The position numbers and the translations under genes were made by a program. From the NCBI RefSeq assembly GCF_000423705.1, contig NZ_AUIM01000004.1, forward strand, positions 1-64,000: a DNA stretch of 64,000 bases. Direction: 5' to 3'. The first letter of the stretch is position 1. Each line of letters opens with the position of its first letter. Below, one piece after another: positions 449-22,413 of this stretch. The DNA comes from Stappia stellulata DSM 5886. Lineage in GTDB: Bacteria; Pseudomonadota; Alphaproteobacteria; Rhizobiales; Stappiaceae. Below the pieces are notes generated by a model that saw only the letters and a program-made list of their open reading frames with translations, made no database searches and was not told the DNA's origin.

Positions 449-474
449 GGAACAATCGATCCCTGTTGCCGGTT
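449..474 (+). promoter_or_regulatory. EcfG-type promoter candidate for trkH-trkA
   Basis: GGAAC at 449-453, an 18-nt spacer and GTT at 472-474, ending 36 nt before the trkH ATG. It has the same architecture and start-codon distance as the elements before six other stress-region genes in this window. It is a single-gene match with 18-nt spacing, so it is less secure than the cluster at 15-22 kb. Confidence 0.5.
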
Positions 475-510
475 TATGGCGAATGACATCCCGTCCGGCA
501 TCCTAGGCCC

Positions 511-1968
511 ATGTCCCGAGCAACTGGTCAAAGCAGTGTCGTCTGGCGCGCGCGTCCGGGGCATGTTCTGCGGGCCGTCGCGGTTCACGGACTGGTCCTT
601 GCCGGACTGACCGCTCCGCCCGCCGTTGCCGCCGCTGTCGAGCGCCATTGGGAACTGGTCTTCGCGCTTGGCGCGCCCACGCTGGTTTTCACCGCGGTCG
701 GCGGGGTGTCGCTGCGCAAGTGGCAGCTTCGGGATCTGCGGGGGATCGAAGCCATCGTCACACTTGTCATGTTGTTCGCGCTTGGCGCCGTGCTTGCCGT
801 TCCGGCCTTCATGGTGCTCGGGCTTTCCGCAAGCGATGCCCTGTTCGAATCCGTCTCGGCGATCACCTCGACCGGGCTCTCCGTCGCAACCGGGACAATG
901 GACTGGTCCTTGAGCGGGCATCTCCTGCGCGCCTGGTTGCAATGGTCGGGCGGCTTCGCGATCGCGGTCGCCGGGGTTGCGGTCATCGTCGGGCCGGGGG
1001 TGACCGCGCAGACCCTCGGCGATGTGGGGATCGGCCAGCGCGATTTGCTGCAGTCGACCCGCACCCAGGCGCGTCAGTTGCTGATCGTTTATGGCGCGAT
1101 TACCGGTGTGGGCATTCTGCTGCTGCTGCAGCTCATGCCCAGTTGGTGGGAAGCCGTTGTCGTGGGGCTGGCTGCGGTTTCAACCGGGGGCTTCACGCCA
1201 AGACCGGACAGTCTGGCCAGCTACAGTCGCGTCGCGCAGGCGGTGATCATGCTTCTGTGTTTGTCCACCTGCATTTCCCTGATGTTCTACGTTCTTTGCT
1301 GGCGGTCCGGCCTTTCTTCGGCATTGAGGGCAACGAACGCCAGGGGCGTGCTGGCGCTGACCCTTTCAGGTCTCCTCGCGCTCTGCGCGCTGGTGGTGCT
1401 GAGTTCGCAATTGCCCGCGAGCGCTCTTGCCGATGTCCTTCTGAACTACATCAGCGCGCTGACCACCGCGGGTTTCTCAGTCGCTGTTGTCACGGACGTT
1501 CCGCCTGCCGTTGCCTTTCTCCTGACCGCCATGATCGTCGGTGGCGGGGTGGGATCGACCGCCGGGGGGATCAAGATCGACCGCGCCATGAGCGCGCTTC
1601 GCATGATCGGGCTCACCCTCTTGCGCATGCGCACCCCGCCGCGCGCCGTCACGCATTTCAAGGAGGACGGCGCGCCGGTGAAATCCGAGCGCGTGGTCTC
1701 CCTGGTCGCTGTCGTCAGCTGCTACGCGATCACCGCCCTGGTGGCCTGGATCGTCTTCTTGATGTCGGGCCAGCCGGCGCTTGGATCGCTGTTCGATATC
1801 GTTTCGGCGCTGTCGACCGTGGGGCTTTCGTCGGGCGTGACCGGCCCCGATCTCGCGCCGCACCTGAAATTCGTTCTGGTGGCGGCAATGTTTCTTGGGC
1901 GGCTGGAGTTTCTTGCCGTTCTTGTTGCGTTGTCGCCGTCCACCTGGAGTCCATGGAGAAGCAAATGA
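511..1968 (+). CDS. trkH: TrkH/KtrB-family potassium uptake channel subunit
   Basis: Inner-membrane K+ translocation subunit (485 aa). The four pore-loop repeats of the TrkH/HKT fold are visible, each with its filter glycine: ITSTGLS near residue 121, VSTGGFT near 225, LTTAGFS near 321 and LSTVGLS near 438. The GSTAGGIKI loop near 349 is the gating-loop motif of the family. The last codons overlap the next gene as ATGA, so it is translationally coupled to a TrkA-type regulatory subunit, the usual partner. An EcfG-like promoter lies just upstream. The start is the ATG at 511; the N-terminus before the first helix is rather basic and short. Confidence 0.9.
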   Translation: MSRATGQSSVVWRARPGHVLRAVAVHGLVLAGLTAPPAVAAAVERHWELVFALGAPTLVFTAVGGVSLRKWQLRDLRGIEAIVTLVMLFALGAVLAVPAFMVLGLSASDALFESVSAITSTGLSVATGTMDWSLSGHLLRAWLQWSGGFAIAVAGVAVIVGPGVTAQTLGDVGIGQRDLLQSTRTQARQLLIVYGAITGVGILLLLQLMPSWWEAVVVGLAAVSTGGFTPRPDSLASYSRVAQAVIMLLCLSTCISLMFYVLCWRSGLSSALRATNARGVLALTLSGLLALCALVVLSSQLPASALADVLLNYISALTTAGFSVAVVTDVPPAVAFLLTAMIVGGGVGSTAGGIKIDRAMSALRMIGLTLLRMRTPPRAVTHFKEDGAPVKSERVVSLVAVVSCYAITALVAWIVFLMSGQPALGSLFDIVSALSTVGLSSGVTGPDLAPHLKFVLVAAMFLGRLEFLAVLVALSPSTWSPWRSK

Positions 1969-2648
1969 AGATCGTCATCGTGGGCGCGTCCCGTTTCGGC
2001 GTGGCGACCACCGACCAGCTGATGCAAACCGGTCACCAGGTGGTCCTTGTCGACAGGAACCGCGAAACGCTCGACGAGGTCGCGGAGGATCTGGATTGCG
2101 GCATGCTGCATGGCGACGGGACGTTGCCGACAATCCAGCGCGAAGCGTTCGGCGACCATGCGGATGCGCTGATCCTTCTGACCAACACGGACGACGTGAA
2201 CATCATGGCGGCGCTGGTTGGACGCTCTGTCGGATTCGAGCGTGTCATACCGCAGATCGTGCGTTCGGAGCTTGTATCCGTCTGTGAGGAACTGGGCCTC
2301 GAGGATCTCGTCACGCCGCACCAGACCCTCGCGCGCTCCTTGCTGCGGATGATCGAGGATCACTCCGATGCCGCGCTTGAGATGCGGTTTCGCAAGGGGC
2401 TGACAATACGCGGATACCCTGTCGGGCCGGAACTGGACGGCAAGAAGATCCGCGATCTCAATCTGCCGCGCCAATGCCGGGTTATCGGGATTGCCTGCGA
2501 CGAGACGGAGTGGCTCGGCGACGACGAGACAAGGCTCGAGGAGGGCTACCGTCTGATCATGGTCGCGGAAGACAGCATCGTCGATGACCTGGACGCTTCT
2601 TTCGAAGCCGAGGGAGCAGGGGACATGCCCAAAAACCGGAAGGGCTGA
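1965..2648 (+). CDS. trkA: TrkA-type NAD-binding regulatory subunit of K+ uptake
   Basis: Cytoplasmic RCK/TrkA protein (227 aa) that gates the TrkH channel in response to nucleotides. The N-terminus MKIVIVGASRFG is the Rossmann beta-alpha-beta turn (G-A-S-R-F-G), followed by an acidic residue at the end of beta 2 (VLVDRN). A TrkA-C domain fills roughly residues 135-215. It has one RCK unit, as in KtrA/CglK-like proteins, rather than the two of E. coli TrkA. The start overlaps the trkH stop by 4 nt. Confidence 0.88.
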   Translation: MKIVIVGASRFGVATTDQLMQTGHQVVLVDRNRETLDEVAEDLDCGMLHGDGTLPTIQREAFGDHADALILLTNTDDVNIMAALVGRSVGFERVIPQIVRSELVSVCEELGLEDLVTPHQTLARSLLRMIEDHSDAALEMRFRKGLTIRGYPVGPELDGKKIRDLNLPRQCRVIGIACDETEWLGDDETRLEEGYRLIMVAEDSIVDDLDASFEAEGAGDMPKNRKG

Positions 2649-2656
2649 GAAATTTC

Positions 2657-2681
2657 GGAACAAGTGGTCATTTGCCCTGTT
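2657..2681 (+). promoter_or_regulatory. EcfG-type promoter candidate for the dehydrogenase-oxidase operon
   Basis: GGAAC at 2657-2661, a 17-nt spacer and GTT at 2679-2681. The GTT ends 34 nt before the ATG of the first operon gene at 2716. Spacing, flanking CT before GTT and distance match the other EcfG-like elements here. This suggests that the whole 2716-11076 operon is a general-stress target. Confidence 0.62.
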
Positions 2682-2715
2682 TGAGCCTCGACCGCGTCAA
2701 TTATCGGGGGATCAC

Positions 2716-3453
2716 ATGGCAGTTTTTTCGAGAAGGGCGGTGCTGCTCCAGCTGGGAGCGGCGGGGGTGGCCGCCATCACGCCGGGTGCATCGCTCGCCC
2801 AAAACCCTTTTGCCGCCCTTGATGGAAAACCCTGGGCATTTCTCACCGGGGATGAAGCGCGCTTTCTTGCCGCCCTGGCCGACGTCCTGATTCCGGAAGA
2901 CGCGTTTCCAAGCGCAAGTCAGGCGGGTGTCGTCGATTACATCGACCTGCAACTGGCCGGACCTTACGGGTCGGGCGCGGGTCTCTACCTGAAGGGCCCC
3001 TTCGGCGATGCCGCGCCCGAGCAGGGCTGGCAGGTGGATCGCACACCGGCGTCGTTGATCCGCGACGGGATCGCACGCCTCGAAAAGAACGGCCCCCGCC
3101 TGGTCGACCTCAACGAACCGCAGCGGCAGGACTTCGTCACACGCCTGTCCGAAGGGAAGGGGAGCGATCTCGGTGACATGCCCGCATCCACGTTCTTCGA
3201 CGAGCTCTGGTCCCTGGTGAAGGAAGGCTATTTCGCCGATCCGATCTATGGCGGCAACAAGGATTATGCCGGTTGGCGGATGGTCGGTTTTCCCGGGGCT
3301 CATGCCTATTACACCGATTTTGTCGACAAGAACGCTCCTTTCGCGGCGCCGCCGCGCGGCATCGCCCATGTGCCGGGACGTGCGCGCTCCGCAACTCCGG
3401 GCCGGGCCGCCGGAGTCCGGGGGCGGCAGGAACCGGCGAGAAAGGAGGGCTGA
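2716..3453 (+). CDS. Gluconate 2-dehydrogenase subunit 3-like protein (TAT exported)
   Basis: Small subunit (245 aa) of a three-component membrane dehydrogenase of the gluconate 2-dehydrogenase/fructose dehydrogenase type. It carries the export signal and is thought to carry the signal-less flavoprotein across the membrane. The twin-arginine signal SRRAVLLQLGAAG is at residues 5-17 with a cleavage-like ASLAQ near 28. The body contains the family pattern LADVLIPEDAFPSA and the C-terminal GGNKDYAGWRMVGFPG. ATG 2716 was chosen because it places the TAT motif at the N-terminus; an in-frame upstream start would give an implausible leader. The GMC flavoprotein starts 4 nt downstream. Confidence 0.88.
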   Translation: MAVFSRRAVLLQLGAAGVAAITPGASLAQNPFAALDGKPWAFLTGDEARFLAALADVLIPEDAFPSASQAGVVDYIDLQLAGPYGSGAGLYLKGPFGDAAPEQGWQVDRTPASLIRDGIARLEKNGPRLVDLNEPQRQDFVTRLSEGKGSDLGDMPASTFFDELWSLVKEGYFADPIYGGNKDYAGWRMVGFPGAHAYYTDFVDKNAPFAAPPRGIAHVPGRARSATPGRAAGVRGRQEPARKEG

Positions 3454-3456
3454 ATC

Positions 3457-5235
3457 GTGGTCAAGGAACTTCCCAGGACGGATGTCGTGATCGTTGGGGC
3501 CGGGTGGACGGGTCTGGCCGCCGCCAAGGAACTGGCGGATGCGGGTCAGCGGTGCGTGGTGTTAGAGCGCGGCGACTGGCGGCACGATACGGTGAGCTTC
3601 GGGGCTCCGGAGGAACATGACGAGCTCAAATATGCCCGTCGCAAGGGGCATATGCTCGATACGCAGGTAAAAACCCTGTCTTTCCGCAACAACAGCTCAC
3701 AGACGGCCCGGCCAATGCGGCGCCTCGGGTCGTTCCTGCCGGGAAAGGGGCTCGGCGGTGCCGGCATTCACTGGAACGGTCAGCTGTGGCGTCCCCTGCC
3801 GTCGGACCTGAACATGCGCAGCCACTATGCGGAGCGCTATGGCGAAAGCATGCTCGACGGCCTCAGCATCCAGGACTGGGGCGTGTCGTATGACGAACTC
3901 GAGCCCCACCTCGACTTTTTCGATCGCGTCTGCGGCACGGCTGGCGTCGCAGGAAATCTCGATGGCGAAATCCGCGAAGGCGGCAATCCCTTTGAAGGAC
4001 CGCGTTCGGCGGAATATCCCAATCCGCCGATGAAGGCCTCTCCGCCGCTGCGGCGTTTCCGCGAGTCTGCAAAGGCGCTCGGCTATCATCCGTTTCAGAT
4101 GCCTTCGGCCAACGTCACCAGGGCTTACGAGAACGCCTATGGAGCCCAGTTGCATCCTTGCACCTATTGCGGGTTCTGCGAGCGCTTCGGCTGCGGATAT
4201 CTCGCAAAGGCAGACCCCATTGTCTGCATCTACGACATCCTGAAGGATCACGAGAATTTCGAGTTGCGGATGAACGCCCACGTTCTCAGGGTCGAGAAAT
4301 CCGGCGACGGGAAGACCGCAACCGGCGTGACCTATGTCGATGAAGACGGACAGGAGGTGTTTCAGCCGGCCGATACCGTCTGTCTCAACGCCTATGCCCT
4401 GTGGAACGTGCACCTGATGTTGGTCAGCGGTTTGGGCACGCCCTACGACCCGGAGACCGGCAAAGGCACCGTCGGACGAAACTATGCCTACCAGACCCTC
4501 GCCGCGGCGGGCGCATTCTTCGACGACGAGGTCTGGTCCAACCCCTTCATGGGGGCCGGCGCTCTGGGAATGACGATCGACGATTTCAACGGCGACAACT
4601 TCGATCACAGCGAGCTCGGATTTGTCGGGGGCGGCTATATCAGCGCGAACCAGACGAACGGACGGCCGATCAATTACCAGCCGACGCCACCGGGCACCCC
4701 GCCATGGGGCGCAAAGTGGAAGCGGGCGGTGCGCGACAGCTATCTTCACCACGTGGGGATCGTCTGCCACGGCAGCTCGGTCGCGGTTCCCCGGAATTAC
4801 CTCGATCTCGATCCGACCTATGTCGACGATTTCGGGCAACCACTGCTGCGGATGACCTTCGATTTTCCCGACAATGACCGCAAGATGAGCGCCTATGTGC
4901 TTTCGAAGGCGGAAGAAATCGCCCGCAACATGGACAATGTCCGGGCCGTCAGCACGAGCAATCAGGCATCCGAAGGCAAGAGTTATTCCGTCGTTCCCTA
5001 CCAGACCACCCACAACACCGGTGGGGCGGTGATCGGCACCGACCCGGCGACCAGCGTGGTGAACCGCTACGGCCAGATGTGGGACCACCACAATGTCTTC
5101 GTTTTCGGTGCCTGCCTGTTCCCGCAAAACCTTGGATACAACCCGACCGGGGCTTTGATGGGGCTGGCCTACTGGACGCTCGATCACATGAAGAACGACT
5201 ACCTGGGCAATCCGCGCCCGCTGATGGACGCCTGA
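3457..5235 (+). CDS. GMC-family FAD dehydrogenase, large subunit (gluconate 2-DH type)
   Basis: Catalytic flavoprotein (592 aa, GTG start) of the membrane-bound sugar/sugar-acid dehydrogenase. The FAD-binding Rossmann motif VIVGAGWTGLAAAKEL is at residues 10-25. A Cys-rich stretch PCTYCGFCERFGCGY near 232-246 probably holds a 3Fe-4S cluster, as known for related fructose and glucose dehydrogenases. The GMC C-terminal motif HNTGGAVIGTDP with a following NPTGALMGLAYW is intact, with the catalytic His expected near the end. It has no signal peptide of its own, so export would depend on the upstream TAT subunit. The substrate (gluconate, keto-gluconate or a polyol) cannot be read from sequence. 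Confidence 0.88.
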   Translation: MVKELPRTDVVIVGAGWTGLAAAKELADAGQRCVVLERGDWRHDTVSFGAPEEHDELKYARRKGHMLDTQVKTLSFRNNSSQTARPMRRLGSFLPGKGLGGAGIHWNGQLWRPLPSDLNMRSHYAERYGESMLDGLSIQDWGVSYDELEPHLDFFDRVCGTAGVAGNLDGEIREGGNPFEGPRSAEYPNPPMKASPPLRRFRESAKALGYHPFQMPSANVTRAYENAYGAQLHPCTYCGFCERFGCGYLAKADPIVCIYDILKDHENFELRMNAHVLRVEKSGDGKTATGVTYVDEDGQEVFQPADTVCLNAYALWNVHLMLVSGLGTPYDPETGKGTVGRNYAYQTLAAAGAFFDDEVWSNPFMGAGALGMTIDDFNGDNFDHSELGFVGGGYISANQTNGRPINYQPTPPGTPPWGAKWKRAVRDSYLHHVGIVCHGSSVAVPRNYLDLDPTYVDDFGQPLLRMTFDFPDNDRKMSAYVLSKAEEIARNMDNVRAVSTSNQASEGKSYSVVPYQTTHNTGGAVIGTDPATSVVNRYGQMWDHHNVFVFGACLFPQNLGYNPTGALMGLAYWTLDHMKNDYLGNPRPLMDA

Positions 5236-5247
5236 GGGAGGCTCGAC

Positions 5248-6060
5248 ATGAAACTGGTCAGACGAACAGCAATCGTCCTTGTCGCCCTGAGCGTCGGATC
5301 CAGCGTCGCATTGCAGGCGCAGGATTACTCCCAGGGCCCGGCCAAGTCGGAACTCGAGCGCCGACTGAAGGTCGACGGCGTCCTGTTCAACGCCACGATA
5401 AGCCGGGCGCCCGACGACGACCTGCTGGAGGCGGGACGTCTCGTGGCCATGGGCGGTGCGGAAAAAGGCGGATCCGGCATGGCCTGCATCACCTGTCACG
5501 GCGTCGACGGACAAGGCGACGGGACGGGGGCGTTTCCGCGTCTCGACGGGCAGGCGGGCTGGTATCTCTACAAACAGCTTCAGGACTATGCCAGCGGCGC
5601 GCGCCCCAACCGGGTCATGAGCGGCATTGCCAACCGTTTGACGGACCGCGAGCGCGAAGCCGTCTCGGTCTATTACGCGGCGATGGGCGCGGGCACGCTC
5701 GACAGGCCGCGCAGCGCCTTCGACGGGACGTTGCTTCAGTGGGGTGGCCAGCTCGCGGCCGTCGGGTCGGCGGAAAAGGGCATTCCGGCCTGTGTCAACT
5801 GTCATGGCGCGGGCGGCACCGGCCTGCCGCCGTCGGTTCCCTATCTCGCCGGGCAATATGCGGAATACATGGAGCTTCAGTTGCACCTGTGGAAGGAGGG
5901 CACGCGCGACAATGACGCGATGAACGTGATGTCTGCCATCGCCGACAAGATGAGCGCCGAGGATATGCGTGCGGTGTCCGAATATTATGCCCGCGCCGCC
6001 AATCCCGCGACGGCCGAAACGGTTCCCGTGCAGGACCGTGTAACACGCGCGTCGGACTGA
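5248..6060 (+). CDS. Di-haem cytochrome c, dehydrogenase electron acceptor (c4-like)
   Basis: Exported di-haem cytochrome c (270 aa) with two CxxCH sites, CITCHG near residue 82 and CVNCHG near 184, each followed by a class I cytochrome domain of similar layout, as in cytochrome c4/c553 proteins. A Sec signal peptide covers about residues 1-25 (ending LQAQ). Its place directly behind the GMC flavoprotein, 12 nt away, makes it the likely cytochrome subunit of the dehydrogenase. It would pass electrons to the downstream cytochrome c and oxidase. Known three-subunit dehydrogenases usually have a tri-haem subunit; two haems here is a difference. Confidence 0.87.
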   Translation: MKLVRRTAIVLVALSVGSSVALQAQDYSQGPAKSELERRLKVDGVLFNATISRAPDDDLLEAGRLVAMGGAEKGGSGMACITCHGVDGQGDGTGAFPRLDGQAGWYLYKQLQDYASGARPNRVMSGIANRLTDREREAVSVYYAAMGAGTLDRPRSAFDGTLLQWGGQLAAVGSAEKGIPACVNCHGAGGTGLPPSVPYLAGQYAEYMELQLHLWKEGTRDNDAMNVMSAIADKMSAEDMRAVSEYYARAANPATAETVPVQDRVTRASD

Positions 6061-6066
6061 GCGACA

Positions 6067-6594
6067 ATGGTGCTGTCCACTGTATTTCAACGCCTCCGAC
6101 GCGTGTTTTTGCCGCTTGTCGGCGCGGTCGTTCTGACCGCCTGCGTGGTGGGCGTTTCGGTCTGGGCGCTTGCGCGACCCGAAGCCGATCCGATCGGCGC
6201 CTGGTTTCGGGCGCTCGGCGCACGCACCGCCTCCTACGCCGACAGCCTTCAGACACCAACGGGCGCCGGCCGGACGGACTGGACGGACCAGGCTTTGCGT
6301 GTCGTGGACGGCGATCCGGCCCGAGGGGCGGATCTCATAGCCGATTTCGGCTGCGGCGCCTGCCATGCGATCCCCGGGGTCGTGCGGGCCCGGGGAACCG
6401 TGGGGCCGGACCTGCGAGGGTTTCGCGACCGTTCCTACATCGCCGGCATTCTCCCGAACCGGCCCGGAAACCTGGTCGACTGGCTGCAGTCTCCCCCTCG
6501 CCATTCCCCCAAAACGGTGATGCCGGACATGGGCGTGAGCGAGAACGAGGCAAGGCATATGGCCGCTTATCTCTACATGATGGAGTCGCGCTGA
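6067..6594 (+). CDS. Membrane-anchored mono-haem cytochrome c
   Basis: A 175-aa protein with an N-terminal membrane anchor (about residues 15-38) and one class I haem site, CGACHAI near residue 97. It is followed by the GPDLRGF and late VMPDMGVSE motif that provides the axial Met. It lies 6 nt after the di-haem cytochrome and 1 nt before coxB, so it probably shuttles electrons between the dehydrogenase and the CuA/haem c subunit of the oxidase. It resembles the cytochromes built into cbb3/caa3 gene clusters but no closer name is justified. Confidence 0.85.
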   Translation: MVLSTVFQRLRRVFLPLVGAVVLTACVVGVSVWALARPEADPIGAWFRALGARTASYADSLQTPTGAGRTDWTDQALRVVDGDPARGADLIADFGCGACHAIPGVVRARGTVGPDLRGFRDRSYIAGILPNRPGNLVDWLQSPPRHSPKTVMPDMGVSENEARHMAAYLYMMESR

Positions 6595-6595
6595 G

Positions 6596-7522
6596 ATGGA
6601 AGCTGCTCTGGATATCTTCGACGCACAATGGGCGTTGAACGGCGCAGGGGTCGGGGCCTCCAGAACCCTGTGGCTGACGGGTATCATGACCGTGGCAGGC
6701 ATTGCGATCTTCGCTCTCGTGATGGTTTTCGTGGCGCTCGCGTGGAAGGCGCGCGGCGAGGCTCGCACGTGGTGGGTCGTCGGCGGCGGGATCGTTTTTC
6801 CCGCGGTGGTGCTCTTTTCCCTTTTCGTCGGCTCGACGCTGGTCCTGCGGGCGATCGCGGGCGGTGCGGAGGCCGCTCATGTCATCGAGGTGACCGGCAA
6901 GCAGTTCTGGTGGGACGTGGTCTACGATCCCGACGGCCGCGCGATCCGGGATGCCAACGAGATCGTCCTGCCGGTGGGCGAGACGGTGGAGTTCCGTCTG
7001 AAGAGCGCCGACGTGATCCATTCCTTCTGGGTTCCCTCGATCTCCGGAAAGATGGACATGATCCCGGGACGGGTGAACCGGCTGACCGTCACAGCCACTG
7101 AGGAGGGCCGGTTTCGCGGTCAATGCGCGGAGTTCTGCGGTCTCGCCCATCCCCTGATGGCATTCGAGGTCGTGGCCCTTCCTCAAGACGAATTCGACGC
7201 GTTTCTGGACGGCCTCGAGGGCGAGGCACGCGATGCGGTCACACCGCAGGAGCGGCGCGGGGCCGAGGTGTTCCAGACAGCGGGCTGCATCGCCTGTCAT
7301 AGGGTTGGCGGCATATCCGACGCCCGGATCGGTCCCGATCTGACCCGTGTCGGTGCCCGGGCGTCGCTGGGCGCGGGAATGTGGAAGATGAACACCGGCA
7401 ACCTGGCCGGCTGGATCGCCGATGTCCGGGACATGAAGCCCGGCGCGGACATGCCGTCCTACAACCACCTGTCAGGGCCTGAGCTGCGGGCGCTGGTGGC
7501 ATGGCTGGAGAGCCTGGAATGA
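6596..7522 (+). CDS. coxB: Cytochrome c oxidase subunit II with fused C-terminal cytochrome c (caa3 type)
   Basis: Subunit II (308 aa) of a caa3-type oxidase. Two N-terminal transmembrane helices are followed by the cupredoxin domain with the CuA ligands in QCAEFCGLAHPLM (about residues 178-190). A fused haem c domain follows, CIACHRVGG near residue 230, with MPSYNHLS holding the distal Met. The fusion lets it take electrons from the small cytochromes upstream. Its stop overlaps the subunit I start as ATGA. Confidence 0.93.
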   Translation: MEAALDIFDAQWALNGAGVGASRTLWLTGIMTVAGIAIFALVMVFVALAWKARGEARTWWVVGGGIVFPAVVLFSLFVGSTLVLRAIAGGAEAAHVIEVTGKQFWWDVVYDPDGRAIRDANEIVLPVGETVEFRLKSADVIHSFWVPSISGKMDMIPGRVNRLTVTATEEGRFRGQCAEFCGLAHPLMAFEVVALPQDEFDAFLDGLEGEARDAVTPQERRGAEVFQTAGCIACHRVGGISDARIGPDLTRVGARASLGAGMWKMNTGNLAGWIADVRDMKPGADMPSYNHLSGPELRALVAWLESLE

Positions 7523-10349: not shown

Positions 10350-10350
10350 C

Positions 10351-15035: not shown

Positions 15036-15556
15036 TCTGCCGTCTCCTCTTCAGCGGGCACCTCGGTCGCAACCTGGCCGATCGCGGCATTGATGCCGGG
15101 GTAGCAGGAACAGCGGCAGAGATTGCCGCTCATCCGTTCGCGCAATTCGTCCTGCGTCAGCTCCACCTTCGATGTGAGGTCGGCGCTGACATGGCTGGGC
15201 CAACCCGCGGCGACTTCCTCAAGCATCGCCGTCGCTGAACAGATCTGCCCGGGCGTGCAATAGCCGCATTGCATTCCGTCGTGTTCGACGAAGGCGGCCT
15301 GCAGTGCTGACGGACCGTCCCGCGCCAGCCCTTCGACGGTGGTGACCTCGTCGCCTTCATGCATGACCGCGAGGCTGAGACAGGCGTTGATGCGGCGTCC
15401 GTTGACCAGCACCGTGCAGGCTCCGCACTGTCCGTGGTCGCAACCTTTCTTGCTCCCGCTCAGGCCGACATGGTCGCGAAGGGCGTCGAGAAGCGTGACC
15501 CGCGGGTCGAGATCGAGCGACTGCTTCCGGCCGTTCACTGCGAAACTGAGTTTCAT
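15032..15556 (-). CDS. 2Fe-2S subunit of the aldehyde oxidoreductase
   Basis: Small subunit (174 aa) with two 2Fe-2S clusters. The plant-type site is [15 protein letters not shown] with a later NACL; the second, helical site is CGYCTPG with [12 protein letters not shown]. coli PaoA has a TAT leader for periplasmic export, but here the protein starts right at the ferredoxin fold ([11 protein letters not shown]), so the enzyme should be cytoplasmic. An in-frame extension adds no TAT motif. First gene of the pao-like/exoD operon, 28 nt downstream of an EcfG-type promoter. Confidence 0.9.
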
Positions 15557-15583
15557 GGCGCTCTCCTTGGGCAACATGAAAAC

Positions 15584-15608
15584 AACCAGGCGTGGTGGTT
15601 CATGTTCC
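15584..15608 (-). promoter_or_regulatory. EcfG-type promoter for the aldehyde oxidoreductase-exoD operon
   Basis: Read on the minus strand: GGAAC at 15608-15604, a 17-nt spacer and GTT at 15586-15584. The start codon of the 2Fe-2S subunit (15556) is about 28 nt downstream. Confidence 0.68.
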
Positions 15609-15647
15609 CTCTGTTTTCGGTCTTCGGACACTCAGGTCCTTCGTGTG

Positions 15648-15830
15648 TCACGACGCATGGCCGGGCTTGCCCTTGCGCTTGCCCTCGGCAAATGCCTCCA
15701 GCTGCGTCTCGGTCATCGTCTCGTGCATTTCTCGTGCGGCACCGGTCAGATCGGAGGGATCCATTTCGCCGCGTTTTGCGGACAGGGCGGCGCCGGCAGC
15801 CTTTTGTTGCGCTTGCGATTTGGCGGGCAT
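15648..15830 (-). CDS. DUF3008-family small stress-associated protein
   Basis: A 60-residue, lysine- and alanine-rich soluble protein starting MPAKSQAQQKAAGAALSAKR and ending GKRKGKPGHAS, typical of the DUF3008 family. The biochemical function is unknown; family members are usually small conserved hypothetical or stress-induced proteins. It has its own EcfG-type promoter 34 nt upstream, which agrees with a stress role. The ATG at 15830 follows directly after that promoter and matches the family length. Confidence 0.82.
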   Translation of the reverse strand: MPAKSQAQQKAAGAALSAKRGEMDPSDLTGAAREMHETMTETQLEAFAEGKRKGKPGHAS

Positions 15831-15863
15831 GACTGGATCTCCGTGGATAAGGCGTTGCACGAA

Positions 15864-15888
15864 AACTGGCGGAAGCCCGACAGGTTCC
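15864..15888 (-). promoter_or_regulatory. EcfG-type promoter for the DUF3008 gene
   Basis: Minus strand: GGAAC at 15888-15884, a 17-nt spacer, then GTTTTC from 15866. It lies 34 nt upstream of the start codon at 15830. Confidence 0.68.
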
Positions 15889-15973
15889 GGACGGCCGTGG
15901 AGCAGGGCCGGCGGGGAAGGGACGCAATGTCGCGATGACGCACGAAACGTTTCGCCAAAACGTCGCAGGGAGG

Positions 15974-16019
15974 GGCGTCGCGACGGCAGCCGGGGAGGAC
16001 TCACTGCCGTCGCGACGCC
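15974..16019 (-). terminator. 15-bp perfect hairpin behind katE
   Basis: Arms GGCGTCGCGACGGCA (15974-15988) and TGCCGTCGCGACGCC (16005-16019) pair perfectly around a 16-nt loop, 16 nt past the katE stop. No T run follows at once on the minus strand. It is probably a transcription terminator or an RNA-stabilising end of the katE message. Confidence 0.55.
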
Positions 16020-16034
16020 AGGGCATCCGTATCG

Positions 16035-18095
16035 CTACGGGGCCCTGTTCCAGACCCGAAGCGCGGAGGCTTCCTTCAGGAAATCATCGGCCGACAGGAC
16101 GTCCGTGGACACCACGCCGTCGCCAGGGGTGTCCGGGAGGCCCGCCGCGCTGAGCAACGGCCCCGCGTCGGCGCTGTGGAAAATGTATTTTCCATGCGCC
16201 CAGGCGTCGGCGACCCAGCTTCGGGCCGCGTGCAGTCCACCAAGCTGAGCAGCGCCCTCGGCGCTGACCAGCACGGCGGTCGCGTCGAAGATTACCGACG
16301 GACCGCCGTCGATTTTCTCGTCCGTTGCGGTGGTGGACCCGTCGGAAAGACTGACCGACCCGACGCGTGGGCCGACGAGCATTGGCGTCGCGCCTGCCGC
16401 CTTTGCCGCATCGCTCAGCGTCTTGAGTTCGCCGGCATCTGTTCCATCCGCGATCAGGATGCCCAGCCTGCGACCGGCGAGGCTCTTCGGCCCGTTCTTC
16501 AGGATCGAGAGGGCGGGAGAGGCAGACAAATCCTGACGTGTCGGGATTGCCGGTTCGGCCGGCTCCGGCACGGACATGCCCAGACCGTCGGCGACGGCGT
16601 TGGCAAGATCGTCGTGGATGTTGCAAAGCTGCGACAGGACGCGTGTGCGGATCGCCGGGGTCTCCACCTTCGACAACTCGAAGACCAGGGCGTCGGCCAT
16701 GTGACGTTGTTCGACGTCGGTCTGGCTGATGTAGAACTGTCTCGCCTGGCTGTAGTGATCGGCGAATGTCTCGGAACGCTCGCGAACCTTCGGCCCCGGG
16801 TTTTCCTCCGGAACCGAACGGAATCCACCGTCGGGATCCTCGCGCGGCCCGCCTTCGGCATCGCCCCAGCTGTTCGGTTCGTAGTTGGCGCGGGTCGTCG
16901 GATTGGTCATAGCCATATGCCCGTCCTGCTGCAGCGAGTGCATCGGGCATTTCGGGGCGTTGACCGGAATGTGTGTGAAGTTCGGGCTGCCGAGACGCTT
17001 CAATTGCGTGTCGAGGTAGCTGAAATTGCGGCCCTGCAGCAGTGGGTCGTTGGTGAAGTCGACGCCCGGCACGACGTTGCCGGTGTGGAAGGCGACCTGT
17101 TCTGTCTCGGCGAAGAAATTGTCGACCATCCGGTCGAGCACCAGCCGGCCGACCTTTCGCACCGGCACGTCCTCCTCGGGGATAAGCTTGGTCGCGTCGA
17201 GGATGTCGAAGTCGAACCGGTCCGCGAAATCATCGTCGAACACCTGCAGGCCGAGTTCCCATTCTGGATAATTGCCGGACTGGATGGCGTCCCACAGATC
17301 GCGGCGGTGGAAATCCGGATCGGCGCCGTTGATCGCAAGCGCCTCGGGCCATGTCACGGATTGCAGGCCCTGTTTCGGCTTCCAGTGGAACTTCACGTAA
17401 TGCGATTTGCCCTCGGCATTCACGAAACGGAACGTGTGGACGCCGAAGCCTTCCATGAACCGGAAGGATCGCGGGATGGCCCGGTCGGACATGATCCACA
17501 TCATCATGTGCGCGGCCTCGGGCATCAGCGAGATGAAGTCCCAGAAATTGTCATGGGCGGTCTGTGCTTGCGGAAAGCCGCGATCCGGCTCCTGCTTGGC
17601 GGCGTGGATCAGGTCGGGGAACTTGATCGCGTCCTGGATGAAGAAGACGGGAATGTTGTTGCCGACGATGTCCCAGTTGCCTTCCCGCGTGTAGAGCTTG
17701 ACCGCGAAACCGCGCACGTCGCGGGCAAGGTCTGCCGACCCCTTGTTGCCGGCCACAGTCGAGAAACGGACAAAGGCGGGGGTTTTCTCGCCCTTGCGCT
17801 GAAACAGGTCGGCGCGCGTCAGCTCCGGGATCGGGTCATACGTCTCGAAGTAGCCATGGGCGCCGTAACCGCGAGCATGAACCACGCGTTCGGGAATGCG
17901 TTCATGATCGAAATGGAAAATCTTCTCGCGAAAATGGAAGTCTTCCATGAGCGTGGGGCCGCGTGTGCCCTGTTTCAGGGAATTCTGGTCGTCGGAGACA
18001 GGGATCCCCTGCTGGGTGGTCATCCGTTCCACACCCTCCGAGGCCGTCTGGTGATATTCGCCCCCGCGTCCGGAAGATGTCGTGTCTTTCTGCAT
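16035..18095 (-). CDS. katE: Large-subunit (clade 2) catalase, HPII/KatE type
   Basis: Haem catalase (686 aa) that removes H2O2. The catalase core carries the distal His in [12 protein letters not shown] (His about 73), [11 protein letters not shown] and the proximal-side motif [13 protein letters not shown] with the haem-ligand Tyr. An extra C-terminal flavodoxin/DJ-1-like domain (from about residue 550, [15 protein letters not shown]) identifies the large-subunit clade. ATG 18095 follows GAGGAG and fits the family start; an upstream in-frame extension is unlikely. It lies 149 nt behind the CBS gene, with a strong hairpin between them, so it may have its own promoter. No GGAAC-GTT element was found before it. 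Confidence 0.93.
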
Positions 18096-18187
18096 CTGGG
18101 TGGTGCTCCTCGTTTTCGGTGTCGCCTGGCCGACCCGGGGTCTGTGCAGTGACAGGCCGGCAGCAACCGCTCCGGTGTGTCTCGTGC

Positions 18188-18218
18188 CCCGATGCCGGCT
18201 ACCGCTTCCGGCATCGGG
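18188..18218 (-). terminator. 11-bp perfect hairpin between the CBS gene and katE
   Basis: CCCGATGCCGG (18188-18198) pairs perfectly with CCGGCATCGGG (18208-18218) around a 9-nt loop, 27 nt past the CBS-gene stop. It lacks a T tract. It could end the CBS transcript or separate it from katE. Confidence 0.5.
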
Positions 18219-18244
18219 CGCGCTCATGCGTCACGCGATGACGG

Positions 18245-18652
18245 TCAGACTGAGATTTGCTCGAGGGCGGCGCCTGCTGCGGAGGGATCGCCATGACGCG
18301 ACAGGTCGCCGAGCGAAACGATGCCGACGAGGCGCTTGTCGCGGTTGACGACGGGCAGGCGGCGGACCTGTTGCGCGCCCATGTTCCTTGCGACCTCGGC
18401 CACGGCCTGATCCTCAAAACAATACAGGACCTCCGTCGTCATCGCGTCGCTCACGGGGCTCTCCGCGGATTTTTGCTGCGCCAGTGCGTTGATCACGATG
18501 TCGCGATCCGTAAGGGTGCCGACGAGCCGGCCGCCGTCTCCCACGGGAACGAAACCGCTGTCGATCCGTCGCATCACCCGGGCCGCCTCGCGCAGCGTCT
18601 GTTCGGGAGTGAGTGTCAATGGCCTGGGACTCATGATCTCGTTGACCTGCAT
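18245..18652 (-). CDS. Two-CBS-domain protein
   Basis: A stand-alone CBS pair (135 aa), a cytoplasmic adenosine-nucleotide sensor fold. The first CBS motif starts at VNEIMSPRPLTLTPEQ and contains GRLVGTLTDRDI; the second contains VRRLPVVNRDKRLVGIVSLGDL. No other domain is fused. Such proteins are common in EcfG regulons, and an EcfG-type promoter lies 55 nt upstream. The partner protein is unknown. Confidence 0.88.
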   Translation of the reverse strand: MQVNEIMSPRPLTLTPEQTLREAARVMRRIDSGFVPVGDGGRLVGTLTDRDIVINALAQQKSAESPVSDAMTTEVLYCFEDQAVAEVARNMGAQQVRRLPVVNRDKRLVGIVSLGDLSRHGDPSAAGAALEQISV

Positions 18653-18706: not shown

Positions 18707-18731
18707 AACAGCGACAAACCAAAAAGGTTCC
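18707..18731 (-). promoter_or_regulatory. EcfG-type promoter for the CBS gene
   Basis: Minus strand: GGAAC at 18731-18727, a 17-nt spacer and GTT at 18709-18707; the start codon is at 18652. It shares the 188-bp divergent region with the sigma-factor promoter. Confidence 0.66.
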
Positions 18732-18786
18732 CTGTGTCTTCACCGAGATTCCCGGTGCCCGCGGAACTCTCGCGCGACTTGTGCAT

Positions 18787-18812
18787 TGAACAAGCAGGGG
18801 TTTCACCTCGTT
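18787..18812 (+). promoter_or_regulatory. Possible autoregulatory promoter of the ecfG-like gene
   Basis: TGAAC at 18787-18791, a 17-nt spacer and CGTT at 18809-18812. It is one mismatch from the EcfG consensus and lies 28 nt before the GTG start. A second near-match, GGAAC at 18763-18767 with ATT after 17 nt, lies just upstream. Autoregulation is usual for EcfG sigma factors, but both sites are imperfect. Confidence 0.42.
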
Positions 18813-18840
18813 TGCGGGGCAAAAAAAGGAGTGACACGGC

Positions 18841-19380
18841 GTGACCGTAAGGAACGACATCGTCGATCTCATACCGTCCTTGCGCGTTTATGCGTGGGCG
18901 CTCACCCGCCGGCATGAGGATGTCGACGACCTCGTTCAGGCAACGCTCGTGAAGGCGATCGACAAGATCGACAGTTTTCAGCCCGGCAGCAATCTTCGGG
19001 CATGGCTGAAGACGATCATGCGCAACACGTTTCTCAACGATATCGCGAAGATGAAACGGGTCTCGACGGGGTCAGAAGACTGTGTCTCCACGACGCTTTC
19101 CGAGCCCGCGACGCAGGAATGGACCATGCGCGGAGGCGAGTTGATGGAGGCCGTGGCGAAATTGCCGCTGCCCTATCGCGAAACACTCGTGGTTGTCGTG
19201 ATGCTGGGAGAAAGCTACGAGACGGCGGCGGAAATGTTCGGTGTCCAGATCGGCACCATCAAGAGCCGGGTAAACCGGTCGCGGGCCATGGTCGCGCGTG
19301 AACTGGAGGGAGGAAGGGTCACGGAAGAACTGCGCCGGGACGAGCCTTTGCACGGCACGGGCGACATTCGGCCGGTCTGA
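18841..19380 (+). CDS. ecfG: EcfG-like ECF sigma factor of the general stress response
   Basis: RNA polymerase sigma factor (179 aa) with region 2 (DDLVQATLVKAIDKIDSFQPG, about residues 30-50, then LRAWLKTIMRNTFLND) and region 4 (LPLPYRETLVVVVMLGESYETAAEMFGVQIGTIKSRVNRSR). This sequence style is EcfG, the sigma factor released from NepR by phosphorylated PhyR in alphaproteobacteria. The start is GTG 18841, 8 nt after AAGGAG; no ATG fits. A NepR-like gene converges on it, with stop codons 9 nt apart. No PhyR or HWE kinase gene is present in the window. Confidence 0.88.
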   Translation: MTVRNDIVDLIPSLRVYAWALTRRHEDVDDLVQATLVKAIDKIDSFQPGSNLRAWLKTIMRNTFLNDIAKMKRVSTGSEDCVSTTLSEPATQEWTMRGGELMEAVAKLPLPYRETLVVVVMLGESYETAAEMFGVQIGTIKSRVNRSRAMVARELEGGRVTEELRRDEPLHGTGDIRPV

Positions 19381-19389
19381 TCTGCGGGG

Positions 19390-19551
19390 TCAGCGCCGCC
19401 GCTTTTGGCGTTGCTGCAACAAGGTTTCCAGATGATGGGCCAGATCGAGCACGCGGTCGGGAATGTCTTCCTTTCCGATTTCGAAAAGTACCTGCTGAAG
19501 CTGCTCGTCCAGGACATCGTCCTTTCGGCTTGATCCGTTGCTGGATTTCAA
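19390..19551 (-). CDS. nepR: NepR-like anti-sigma factor (TTG start)
   Basis: A 53-residue protein easily missed because it is short and begins with TTG (CAA at 19549-19551), with AGAGGG about 9 nt upstream; a second TTG at 19557 would add two residues. The central part LQQVLFEIGKEDIPDRVLDL matches the NepR helix-1/linker signature (Leu-x-x-hydrophobic, then E-x-I-P-D-R and a Leu-rich second helix), followed by LETLLQQRQKRRR. NepR holds EcfG inactive until PhyR-P binds it. Usually nepR precedes ecfG in one operon; here the two genes converge, which would uncouple their expression. Family call from motif only; no ATG or GTG start is available upstream. Confidence 0.72.
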   Translation of the reverse strand: MKSSNGSSRKDDVLDEQLQQVLFEIGKEDIPDRVLDLAHHLETLLQQRQKRRR

Positions 19552-19557
19552 GGTCAA

Positions 19558-20029
19558 AGCCCTCTTTTTGCACTCTACGAGCGGGTTTCGGCAGTGGATC
19601 TGCGGGGGCTTGCCCCGGTTCGGTCCTGCGGTCTTGCAGGGGGCGTTCCCGGAAGTTCGAAGCGGTCAATTCGCCCGAAAGTGCCGTTCGCCCCGTTACA
19701 CCGCACGGGTTCCGTCTGCGCCTTTTTCTCGCGCGGCGCAACACCCCTTCTTCGGTGCCCGATCCCTTCAATGACTGCAACAGACGCGCGAAAGCTTTGT
19801 TCCAATTCCGCGGTCGCGGGGAGGGGAAGCTCTATCCGCTGCGGGGCTGATCGACGCCCTGGCGGTCGAGCTGGCGTCGCGCGGGGAAGGGCGTGCGACC
19901 GTCGTCCGTCCGCCAACTGCCCGCTCCGACACAAGCCCAAAGGGCGAGGCGAAGCCGGGCAGCCCGCGCGCGTGAGCGGAGAAGGCGACGCCCAGCGCCG
20001 ATGGTTTGCCTGTCTATGTTATCGGCGAT
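19558..20029. other. Intergenic region between nepR and the SDR gene, no convincing gene
   Basis: About 470 bases. It holds an EcfG-like element on the minus strand (19779-19803) that points toward nepR. On the plus strand a stretch at about 19839-19974 reads AAGLIDALAVELASRGEGRA and ends in a stop. This has coding-like composition but no start codon, and may be the tail of a decayed gene. Nothing else is recognised. Confidence 0.4.
19779..19803 (-). promoter_or_regulatory. EcfG-type promoter candidate upstream of nepR
   Basis: Minus strand: GGAAC at 19803-19799, a 17-nt spacer and GTT at 19781-19779. The nearest sensible gene downstream is nepR, with a 5' leader of about 220 nt, longer than for the other elements. 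EcfG control of nepR would give negative feedback. Confidence 0.5.
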
Positions 20030-20884
20030 CTACATCATCGGCATTGCGCCGGCGACCGCGACGGTGGCACCCGATGTGTAGCTCGACAGCGGATCGGCCA
20101 GCATCACATAGGCGGTCGCCAGTTCCGCCGGCTGGGCGGGACGGCCCATCGGCTTGTTCTCGCCGAAATGCGCCACGGAGTCTGCGGGCAGGGTCGCGGG
20201 GATCAGCGGGGTCCAGACAGGTCCCGGGGCGACGCAGTTCACCCGCAGTCCGCGCTCGGCGAGCATTTGCGCCAGTCCCACCGTGAAATTCTGGATGGCG
20301 CCCTTGGTCGTTGCATAGGCGAGCAGGCCGGGATTGGGCTTGTCGGAATTGATCGACGCGGTGTTGATGATCGCGCCGTTTCTTTCCATCAGCGGCGCGG
20401 CGGCCTTGCACAGGTAGAACATCGAATGGAGGTTGGTGCGGAATGTCATTTCCCACTCCTCGTCATCGATGTCTTCCAGCTCCTGGAAATACATCTGGTG
20501 GGCCGCATTGTTGACCAGGAGGTCCAGCCGGCCGAACGCCTCATGCGTGTTGCGCACCAACGCGCGGCAGTGGTCGGCGTCCTGGATGTCGCCCGGCATG
20601 ACGCAGGCGCGTTGTCCCGCCTCTTCCACGAGGGCCCGGGTCACATCCGCTTCCTTGTCTTCTTCAAGATAGGAGATCATCACGTCGGCGCCCTCGCGGG
20701 CATAGGCAAGCGCGACGGCACGGCCGATCCCGCTATCGGCGCCGGTGACGAGAGCCGCCATGCCCTTCAGCTTTCCGGACCCTTTGTAGCTTCGTTCGCC
20801 GTGGTCCGGGCGCGGTTCCATCCTGCCGGTCTCGCCGGGCAACGTCTGCGGCTGTTCGGGGAACGGGGGGCTTGGATAGTGCAT
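20030..20884 (-). CDS. YghA-like short-chain dehydrogenase/reductase
   Basis: An NAD(P)-dependent SDR (284 aa) of the extended YghA type. A 40-residue N-terminal tail (PFPEQPQTLPG) precedes the Rossmann motif TGADSGIGRAVAL. NNAAHQ and the catalytic Ser/Tyr/Lys set (INTAS, YATTKGA) are present. Related genes are recurrent members of stress regulons; the substrate is unknown. ATG 20884 was chosen for the conserved N-terminus, and the EcfG promoter lies 34 nt upstream. Confidence 0.9.
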   Translation of the reverse strand: MHYPSPPFPEQPQTLPGETGRMEPRPDHGERSYKGSGKLKGMAALVTGADSGIGRAVALAYAREGADVMISYLEEDKEADVTRALVEEAGQRACVMPGDIQDADHCRALVRNTHEAFGRLDLLVNNAAHQMYFQELEDIDDEEWEMTFRTNLHSMFYLCKAAAPLMERNGAIINTASINSDKPNPGLLAYATTKGAIQNFTVGLAQMLAERGLRVNCVAPGPVWTPLIPATLPADSVAHFGENKPMGRPAQPAELATAYVMLADPLSSYTSGATVAVAGAMPMM

Positions 20885-20917
20885 TCTTGCGCTCCTTCTG
20901 CATTGCTCGCTCGCGGG

Positions 20918-20942
20918 AACAGCCGGCGCCGACCGATGTTCC
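20918..20942 (-). promoter_or_regulatory. EcfG-type promoter for the SDR gene
   Basis: Minus strand: GGAAC at 20942-20938, a 17-nt spacer and GTT at 20920-20918, 34 nt before the start codon at 20884. One of the cleanest elements in the set. Confidence 0.7.
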
Positions 20943-20977
20943 CGCAAGGGGGAACCGGGCGGGGTGCCCGGTCCCGC

Positions 20978-22351
20978 TCACGCCATGTAGAGGGATTTCA
21001 CATTCACGAATTCCTTCATGCCAAAGCCGCCATGCTCGCGTCCGTAGCCGGAGTTCTTGACCCCGCCGAAGGGCATGTTCGGGAGGGCGAGCTTGTAGGT
21101 GTTGATCGAAACCATCCCGGTGTCGAAATGCTTGGATGCCAGGTCGCGGGCGCGCTGCGTATCCTTGGAAAAAATGCCGCCGCCGAGGCCGTAGTGGCTG
21201 TCGTTGGCGGTCCGCATCGCGTCGTCGTCGTCGCGGGCCCTGATAACCGATGCAACCGGCCCGAACAGCTCGTCGTCATAGGCCGGCTGGCCCGGTTTCA
21301 CGTCGACAAGCACGGTTGGGGTGTAGAAGGCGCCTGTCGCTTCAGGCACCGTTCCGCCGCACAAGGCCCGCGCGCCCTTGGCAATGCTGTCCTCGACCTG
21401 TCCGGCCAGCGTTTCGCGCAGGTCCTTGCGCGCCAACGGGCCGAGGCCGGTGGCCTCATCCGTCGGATCGCCGATTTCGAATGACTTCATGCGCTCGGTA
21501 AAACGCTCCACGAACGCATCGTAATTCGCGTCGGTCACGACGAAGCGCTTGGCATTCACGCATGTCTGGCCGTTGTTGTAGATCCTGCCCGTCGCGCAGC
21601 TCTCGACCGCCACGTCGAGATCGGCATCGTCGAGGATGACGTAGGCATCGTTCGATCCGAGTTCGAGAACCGTCTTCTTCAGGTGCCGTGCGGCCTGTTT
21701 CGCCACAATGCGTCCGGCGGTATCGCTGCCGGTCAGCGTCACGCCGCGCACGCGGGCGCTGGCGATGACCTCAGCCGACTGGTCGTGGTCGATGACCAGA
21801 ACCGTGAAAAGGTTTTTGGGCAGGCCCGCCGCCTCGATCAGATCGCGCAGGTAAAGTCCGCTGCCGGTGCAGTTGGCGGCGTGTTTCAACAAGACACCGT
21901 TTCCCGCCATCAGATTGGCGACCGAATAACGGATCGCCTGATAGCAGGGAAAATTCCAGGGCTGGATGCCGTAAATGACACCGGTCGGAGCATGGGTGAC
22001 GATGCCGGTGCCGCCGGGAATTGCGCGCTCTTCGTCGGCAAGTTCTGCCGGCCCGTTTTCTGCGGTGTAGTCGCAGATCGCGGCGCACAGGTCGATCTCG
22101 TCGCGGCTGTCGCCGATCAGCTTGCCCACCTCCTTGGTCATGAGCGCGGCGAAGTCCTCGCGGTTGTCGCGCAGCGCGCGGCCGATGGCGCTGATTTTCG
22201 CCGCGCGGTCTTCCAGCGAAACGAGGCGCCACGCCTCGAATGCGGCATGACAGTCATCGACGGCCGTCGCGACCTCCTGGTCGCTCATCAACCGGTAGGT
22301 CCCGATCACCTCTTCGGTGGCCGGATTGACTGTGTCGATCTGTCTGGCCAT
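20978..22351 (-). CDS. NAD(P)-dependent aldehyde dehydrogenase (succinate-semialdehyde DH-like)
   Basis: A class 3-like ALDH (457 aa) related to succinate-semialdehyde dehydrogenases such as Sad/GabD. It has PWNFPCYQ (about 141), LTGSDTAGR, the general-base Glu in VLELGSND (about 230), the catalytic Cys in GQTCVNAKRF (Cys 264) and the C-terminal PFGGVKNSGYGRE. ATG 22351 is preceded by GGAGG 5 nt away; an in-frame ATG 12 nt upstream lies inside that ribosome site and is less likely. Its own EcfG-type promoter is 37 nt upstream. Confidence 0.92.
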   Translation of the reverse strand: MARQIDTVNPATEEVIGTYRLMSDQEVATAVDDCHAAFEAWRLVSLEDRAAKISAIGRALRDNREDFAALMTKEVGKLIGDSRDEIDLCAAICDYTAENGPAELADEERAIPGGTGIVTHAPTGVIYGIQPWNFPCYQAIRYSVANLMAGNGVLLKHAANCTGSGLYLRDLIEAAGLPKNLFTVLVIDHDQSAEVIASARVRGVTLTGSDTAGRIVAKQAARHLKKTVLELGSNDAYVILDDADLDVAVESCATGRIYNNGQTCVNAKRFVVTDANYDAFVERFTERMKSFEIGDPTDEATGLGPLARKDLRETLAGQVEDSIAKGARALCGGTVPEATGAFYTPTVLVDVKPGQPAYDDELFGPVASVIRARDDDDAMRTANDSHYGLGGGIFSKDTQRARDLASKHFDTGMVSINTYKLALPNMPFGGVKNSGYGREHGGFGMKEFVNVKSLYMA

Positions 22352-22387
22352 GAATGCCTCCATTGGGTTTTCTGGCGTCACGATCCC

Positions 22388-22413
22388 AACAGTCGGGGCC
22401 GGCACATGGTTCC
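22388..22413 (-). promoter_or_regulatory. EcfG-type promoter for the aldehyde dehydrogenase gene
   Basis: Minus strand: GGAAC at 22413-22409, an 18-nt spacer and GTT at 22390-22388; the start codon is at 22351. Confidence 0.62.

Follow-up and report, generated by a model that had tools for sequence, protein, structure and literature searches.

A second, non-canonical EcfG-type sigma factor of Stappia stellulata amid clustered promoter elements with a divergent -10 base

In the opening 23 kb of a 64-kb stretch of Stappia stellulata DSM 5886 (contig NZ_AUIM01000004.1, here C1, positions 1 to 64,000; the window), a gene for an EcfG-type sigma factor lies among redox, catalase and transport genes, several of which are preceded by a GGAAC-N17/18-GTT element. 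This raises the question of which regulon is gathered here. The first-pass annotation took it to be the general stress response (GSR) core of the genome, clustered round ecfG and nepR, and read CTGTT as the lineage variant of the CGTT -10 element. The canonical set of phyR, divergent nepR and ecfG, however, lies on another contig (C2:681-684 kb), where a NepR family search of the genome also has its only above-cut-off match (C2:682.6 kb). As the window sigma factor is 43% identical to the EcfG of that locus, the window holds a second EcfG. By its sequence, this is a non-canonical EcfG of the type of Rhizobium etli EcfG2 and Sinorhizobium meliloti RpoE5, hereafter EcfG2, with EcfG1 for the canonical one. 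The window is not a canonical GSR locus: no match to phyR was found in its 64 kb, and its NepR-like open reading frame (ORF) is convergent with ecfG2 rather than in an operon with it.

Clustered elements round a paralogous sigma factor

All eight GGAAC-N17/18-GTT elements of the first-pass annotation are present, with positions and strands as it gave them. Seven lie 27-54 nt 5' of a start codon, the nepR element being the exception (some 228 nt). Matches at 20916 (+) and 20918 (-) form a single palindromic place, and further N16-18 matches occur at 8229 (N16, within the COX1 reading frame), 38879 (N18) and 47969 (N16). For N16 and N17 together, nine matches in the window compare with 3.23 in shuffled sequences, and two of 100 shuffles reach nine. 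The genome (4.608 Mb, 12 contigs) contains 317 N16-18 matches, or about 4.4 per 64 kb. Since this total is not above that of a reversed-pattern control (459), most matches are background. GGAAC-N17-GTT accounts for 105 of them (104 distinct sequences); seven lie in the first 23 kb of the window and none in the remaining 41 kb. Six distinct N17 places fall within 22 kb, where chance predicts 0.5 (Poisson P 1.4e-5, the span having been picked post hoc). In a 380-kb sample of the same genome, none of the spacers from 12 to 23 is prominent (3-14 each), with eight for N17, two of which adjoin the canonical locus. Of the 104 distinct N17 sequences, 25 pass a loose promoter filter in a version that does not accept TTG (Shine-Dalgarno-like bases plus ATG or GTG within 80 nt): five in the window, seven at the canonical locus, three at the start of a third contig (C3) and ten elsewhere. 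This confirms elements that resemble EcfG-type promoters and cluster, beyond chance, about a gene of the ecfG type and an ORF similar to nepR. The genome scan proposed in the first-pass annotation places the cluster above background, but the canonical locus (C2:678-692 kb) equals or exceeds it in density.

The EcfG2 product matches Pfam Sigma70_r2, PhyR_sigma2 and Sigma70_r4_2, all above cut-off, its region 2 being of the EcfG/PhyR type. In a tree of 32 sigma factors it falls in a separate nine-row clade (support 100/99) with the sigma factors of comparable islands, among them those of Amorphus coralli and of same-genus relatives. A larger, quickly built tree with 124 rows needed two label changes, and one of its 37 rows labelled canonical is a PhyR, which joined an island row. 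There the neighbour of the window protein is Salipiger marinus (support 97), within a group of six rows (99), the nearest rows being Salipiger, a Paracoccaceae metagenome-assembled genome and two Falsirhodobacter. The window protein sits on a long branch. The nearest sequence seen, that of Salipiger marinus, is 63-67% identical, and same-genus island sigma factors reach at most 44%. The clade extends to described proteins. Its R. etli CIAT 652 member shares the TQEW motif of the clade, and a pSymB gene of S. meliloti 1021 has 95.4% DNA identity to the S. meliloti 4H41 member. We take this pSymB gene to be rpoE5, the mapped promoter of which is identical to that of ecfG2 at one of the related loci (L206).

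The predicted product of the convergent ORF, nepR2, scores 12.8 bits against Pfam NepR, below the cut-off of 25.7 and so outside the family by that threshold. A phmmer search with it finds short ORFs in 19 other stretches, nearly all opposite in strand to ecfG2. An iterated profile detects an ORF at E ≤0.01 in 61 of 88 stretches, and in 40 of 40 canonical stretches used as positive control. In relatives, some of these ORFs lie directly downstream of ecfG2 and others 1-5 kb upstream. NepR2 may bind EcfG2 and act as its anti-sigma factor.

The base before GTT

The two loci of S. stellulata share the -35 element, the spacer and the richness in motifs; they differ in the -10 element. The canonical locus has nine N17 matches in 14 kb (C2:678412-692445), six of them within 3.1 kb, and four of these six read CGTT. 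Among promoter-positioned elements, C precedes GTT in six of eight at the canonical locus versus none of ten in the window (eight) and at the C3 start (two) (Fisher P 0.0015; matches inside predicted genes, including a CGTT match at C3:17730, are left out). CTGTT is therefore not a genome-wide lineage variant. Checked against the ECF15 promoter class, the -35 element and the spacing of the island elements fit; the C of the -10 element occurs in none of the eight island elements of the window and is present at ecfG2's own promoter. As a side observation, the canonical cluster includes genes for small proteins that by eye resemble the CsbD and DUF1328 families.

The same pattern was sought in relatives. 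Searching with an alignment of seven clade members, we collected 80 island loci (the best 80 of at least 541 confirmed) together with flanks of up to 10 kb (1.54 Mb). The choice rested on the sigma factor sequence, irrespective of motif content; loci from related genomes are not independent. They contain 440 N17 and 206 N18 elements, whereas any other spacer length between 10 and 25 gives 24-56 (about 38), and 325 and 162 of these N17 and N18 elements, respectively, pass the loose start-codon filter (here ATG, GTG or TTG within 80 nt). In 30 canonical stretches from 29 of the same genomes (593 kb), 125 N17 elements are found versus about 13 per other spacer. Because both kinds of locus are enriched, clustering round an ecfG gene appears usual in the sampled genomes. 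The clustering that the first-pass annotation considered peculiar to this region is hence real, but not exceptional.

Within these 29 genomes, promoter-positioned elements carry C before GTT in 84 of 103 cases at canonical loci versus 68 of 196 in islands; a further locus (L198) did not enter this comparison. Twenty genomes have two or more promoters on both sides, and in 19 of them the C fraction is higher on the canonical side (Wilcoxon P 1e-4); the other nine have too few promoters on one side. Relative to 12 control spacers, and leaving out ecfG2's own promoter, all four bases are enriched in the 80 islands (A 14.7-fold, C 17.2-fold, G 19.5-fold, T 10.9-fold), whereas in 45 canonical stretches C stands out (A 6.9-fold, C 22.4-fold, G 3.1-fold, T 2.1-fold). 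Seven additional loci have C in three of 24 island promoters. Near the S. meliloti 4H41 homologue there are eight N17/18 elements, six of them promoter-positioned and two of these six with C; near R. etli CIAT 652 ecfG2, four promoter-positioned N17 elements all lack it. Judging from these counts, the base before GTT looks free in islands rather than re-fixed, apart from bases favoured in particular lineages: T in the window and G in Stappia, Chelatococcus and several Rhodobacterales. Counts of CGTT versus DGTT across 22 whole genomes had too high a background to decide the matter. A dense case is Chelatococcus caeni, where at least 13 distinct GGAAC-N16-nonC-GTT places lie in the 41 kb round ecfG2 (C1:1557609-1598001 of that assembly; 84 matches in its 5.4-Mb genome), all beginning with GGAACA save one palindromic partner.

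The promoter of ecfG2 itself is different. In the window it was overlooked by the first-pass annotation; at 18763 it reads GGAACTCTCGCGCGACTTGTGCATT, with a canonical-type -10 element. Among the 80 loci, a GGAAC-N17/18-[AG]TT element lies within 200 bp upstream of ecfG2 in 72, compared with 0, 2, 2 and 1 of 80 for control spacer pairs. C is present in 68 of these 72 (39 CATT and 29 CGTT, next to three AGTT and one GGTT). Six of the seven additional loci have such a promoter, four with C. Two of three Stappia loci have AGTT instead, so ecfG2 may be self-driven there. In S. meliloti, the mapped rpoE5 promoter (from a table of 5'-RACE or RNA sequencing (RNA-seq) data) reads GGAACCAAAGGGCCGGAAAGGCATT, that is, GGAAC-N16-CATT, and is induced by RpoE2 (Lang 2018, PMC6180224); the L206 promoter is the same GGAACCAAAGGGCCGGAAAGGCATT. 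In R. etli CIAT 652, no GGAAC-N17/18-[AG]TT element was found in the 300 bp before ecfG2. For R. etli CFN42, passages of the literature describe that ecfG2 is not directly stimulated by EcfG1 in Escherichia coli, while its expression is halved without ecfG1. The S. meliloti and R. etli cases broadly fit a C-type promoter as the putative input from EcfG1.

The loop of regions 2.3/2.4 has a finer role in -10 recognition. In a comparison of 82 island proteins with 33 labelled canonical, of which one is a PhyR, positions 141, 142, 144-146 and 149-151 of region 4.2 are near-invariant over both clades, while positions 63, 69, 78-80, 83 and 84 of region 2.3/2.4 separate them consistently. Region 2.4 contacts the -10 element and region 4.2 the -35 element (PMC4814048). 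Near-identity in region 4.2 and divergence in region 2.3/2.4 would match a shared -35 and a changed -10 element.

A proposed two-tier cascade and its alternatives

These observations suggest a two-tier cascade, in which EcfG1 switches on ecfG2 and EcfG2 reads the nGTT promoters nearby; we consider this reading probable, though well short of assured. General stress would free EcfG1, encoded elsewhere beside phyR and nepR. EcfG1 would then transcribe ecfG2 from its C(A/G)TT promoter (here GGAAC-N16-CATT at 18763), and EcfG2, probably held back by its own convergent NepR-like protein, would transcribe the neighbouring redox, catalase, aldehyde-handling, respiratory and potassium-transport genes. 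At these targets the GGAAC -35 element would be unchanged and the first base of the -10 element altered (mostly CTGTT here; often GGTT, AGTT or TGTT in relatives). Both EcfG2 as the reader of the island and the link from EcfG1 to ecfG2 in S. stellulata are steps that we infer from promoters and protein comparisons. Whether the non-canonical EcfGs of Rhizobiales and Rhodobacterales in general form a second GSR tier, with a dialect of their own (GGAAC with a free first -10 base), a regulon clustered at the sigma gene and a sigma gene usually driven from C[AG]TT, is about evenly balanced in our view. If so, a single base would set second-tier promoters apart from first-tier ones and allow the island to act as a plug-in unit; nature would thus offer an example of sigma factor paralogues distinguished by one base of the -10 element. 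A 2021 review calls, in the part available, the promoter pattern of non-canonical EcfGs "yet to be determined". The pattern is specific and cheap to test, and with the candidate targets beside each sigma gene it would make that question testable. A literature search, with thin coverage of subscription journals and hence no proof of novelty, gave no published report of it among the papers listed.

Several points weigh against the cascade. Overexpression of S. meliloti RpoE5 yielded a single putative target (Lang 2018, PMC6180224). A single GSR regulon in Sphingopyxis is described with up to 14 putative -10 boxes, so looseness of the -10 element need not mean a second sigma factor. The R. etli literature, in the passages available, reports that ecfG2 expression halves without ecfG1, though the CIAT 652 relative shows no C-type promoter, and that the promoters recognised by R. 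etli EcfG2 include those of phyR and of ecfG2 itself. C makes up about half of the bases before GTT in Neorhizobium and Pseudorhizobium islands, three of five in Amorphus and one of one in Phenylobacterium. Two candidate refinements failed: an A after GGAAC as a second mark of the dialect was split 10 versus 10 in a paired test (this A is frequent in Mesorhizobium, Stappia and Chelatococcus but not in Rhizobium), and T before GTT as a trait of sigma factors near that of the window held in none of three relatives at 52-55% identity. Salipiger, seen before the latter prediction was made, fits partially (T in three of six). The residue pattern is not specific either, because positions 13, 30, 54 and several of 97-127 also separate the clades, and position 147 in region 4.2 nearly does.

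Of the alternatives, chance or base composition, with GGAAC and GTT accidentally paired, accords with the genome-wide total not exceeding the reversed-pattern control, but is hardly credible at all, given that only spacers 17 and 18 are enriched in the 80 loci and only N17 in the clusters of this genome. The view from which we started, in which the GSR regulon is clustered at the window ecfG and nepR and CTGTT is the lineage form of the promoter, rightly points to real elements and real clustering; it is nevertheless highly improbable in the light of a canonical locus on another contig with its own, mostly CGTT, motif cluster, and of a window sigma factor that is a paralogue. A more serious competitor, albeit a rather unlikely one, is a single regulon with a loose -10 element: EcfG1 would transcribe the island too, from weaker promoters under relaxed selection, and EcfG2 would add little. 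The variable -10 boxes of Sphingopyxis GSR promoters and the lone RpoE5 target speak for it, as do partial accounts of a C/GGTT consensus in Methylobacterium extorquens, where paralogues are thought to recognise similar promoters, and of the use of C/GGTT for promoter prediction in Rubellimicrobium. Relative to control spacers, however, non-C elements are about as enriched as C elements in islands and much less so at canonical loci, the difference in C holds within genomes, and ecfG2's promoter, inside the island, retains its C in 68 of 72 cases. A last possibility is compatible with the cascade and less likely than not, namely that the island or its sigma gene was horizontally acquired from a Roseobacter-like donor and retained a CTGTT dialect. 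The closeness of EcfG2 to Salipiger marinus rather than to its own genus, the occurrence of CTGTT among Salipiger island promoters and transposase fragments at the contig edges would agree with transfer. The presence of islands with overlapping gene content in the genus, the canonical-type CATT of the ecfG2 promoter and the long branch of the sigma factor argue against it.

Comparison with described systems supports parts of the two-tier cascade and sets it apart in others. As proposed for the window sigma factor, R. etli EcfG2 (PF00052) has oxidative-stress targets including a catalase, katG being EcfG2-dependent, and targets mostly without CGTT (found in one of 19 EcfG2-dependent units) (Jans 2013, PMC3892343); no phyR is annotated beside the CIAT 652 relative, which is on a plasmid. 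R. etli EcfG2 is plasmid-borne, a trait reported for its subgroup. In contrast to the window, a promoter motif was not found for its regulon, and the passages of Jans 2013 consulted do not speak of surroundings rich in motifs. S. meliloti RpoE5 resembles it in its GGAAC-N16-CATT promoter, activated there by RpoE2, and in a NepR-like ORF on the opposite strand directly downstream; it differs in its single overexpression target and in that Lang 2018, as far as the available text goes, takes a different gene, on the same strand, to be the probable anti-sigma factor (PMC6180224). The canonical locus of the same genome differs in its mostly CGTT -10 elements, its phyR and its divergent sigma factor. 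Two EcfG copies in a hierarchy are likewise described for Caulobacter (SigT-SigU) and for Sphingomonas and Sphingopyxis (EcfG1-EcfG2). Unlike the two dialects proposed here, SigU is reported to act on part of the SigT regulon, and the two Sphingopyxis EcfGs to have targets in common. The Caulobacter and Sphingomonas pairs are also closer to each other than R. etli EcfG1 and EcfG2 (Jans 2013, PMC3892343, in part).

Genes of the island and its surroundings

The features of the island are listed in Table 1. The long catalase gene downstream of the CBS gene was overlooked by the first-pass annotation, and its true start is probably internal. Several of these genes recur in the stretches round the EcfG2-type gene of same-genus relatives, where the GMC dehydrogenase (56%) has a homologue in two genomes, COX1 and the CBS and SDR proteins in four, and CtaG in three. 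A PhyR match above 120 bits is found in one of the 80 island stretches of relatives; Chthonobacter is the sole one of these with a PhyR homologue (44%; 12310-13065 of its stretch) near a non-canonical ecfG.

Table 1. Genes and putative promoter elements in the left part of the window
Feature	Position	Strand	Evidence
GGAAC-N17-GGTT promoter of trkH	449..474	+	
TrkH, then TrkA-domain protein	511..2648	+	
GGAAC-N15-CTGTT promoter of dehydrogenase-oxidase operon	2657..2681	+	
Gluconate-2-dehydrogenase subunit 3 type, GMC oxidoreductase, cytochrome c, COX2, COX1, CtaG	2716..11076	+	
Fer2/Fer2_2, FAD-binding and molybdopterin-binding subunits, then ExoD	11270..15631	-	
GGAAC-N16-GGTT promoter of molybdenum aldehyde-oxidoreductase-type operon	15584..15608	-	
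DUF3008 protein; true start in-frame, 33 nt past promoter	15648..16004	-	Pfam DUF3008 1.3e-23
GGAAC-N16-AGTT promoter of DUF3008 gene	15864..15888	-	
Long catalase	16035..18227	-	Pfam Catalase 1.4e-181 and Catalase_C
CBS-domain protein	18245..18652	-	Pfam CBS 4.7e-28
GGAAC-N15-CTGTT promoter of CBS gene, possibly also of the catalase gene behind it	18707..18731	-	
ecfG2 promoter GGAAC-N16-CATT, canonical-type -10 with C, 53 nt before GTG	18763..18787	+	
ecfG2, non-canonical EcfG (ECF15-type) sigma factor, 179 aa, GTG start	18841..19380	+	Pfam
nepR2, NepR-like anti-sigma candidate, 53 aa, TTG start, convergent with ecfG2	19393..19551	-	Sub-threshold Pfam NepR
GGAAC-N15-CTGTT element about 228 nt upstream of nepR2	19779..19803	-	
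Short-chain dehydrogenase (SDR); true start within frame	20030..20947	-	Pfam adh_short_C2 1.3e-59
GGAAC-N15-CTGTT promoter of SDR gene, palindromic with + match at 20916	20918..20942	-	
Aldehyde dehydrogenase; true start within frame	20978..22633	-	Pfam Aldedh 9.9e-132
GGAAC-N16-CTGTT promoter (18 bases before GTT) of aldehyde dehydrogenase	22388..22413	-	

The window is the opening of the 1.07-Mb contig C1. As the assembly breaks at its first base, the cluster may continue on another contig, for which the start of C3 is a candidate. Two more GGAAC-N15-CTGTT promoters occur there, at 8616 and 11969 (within C3:1-20000). They precede a FAD sorbitol-dehydrogenase-type subunit and a gene without Pfam match, and genes for a HisKA_2 kinase and a Crp-type regulator adjoin. 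A join of the two contigs via a common insertion element is suggestive only, as contig C10 has the same 300 bases. C1 (1-300) and C3 (1-260) both open inside transposase genes (HTH_Tnp_1, rve_3), which would fit a single insertion element cut in two by the assembly. The starts of these two contigs account for six of the genome's ten N17 CTGTT matches.

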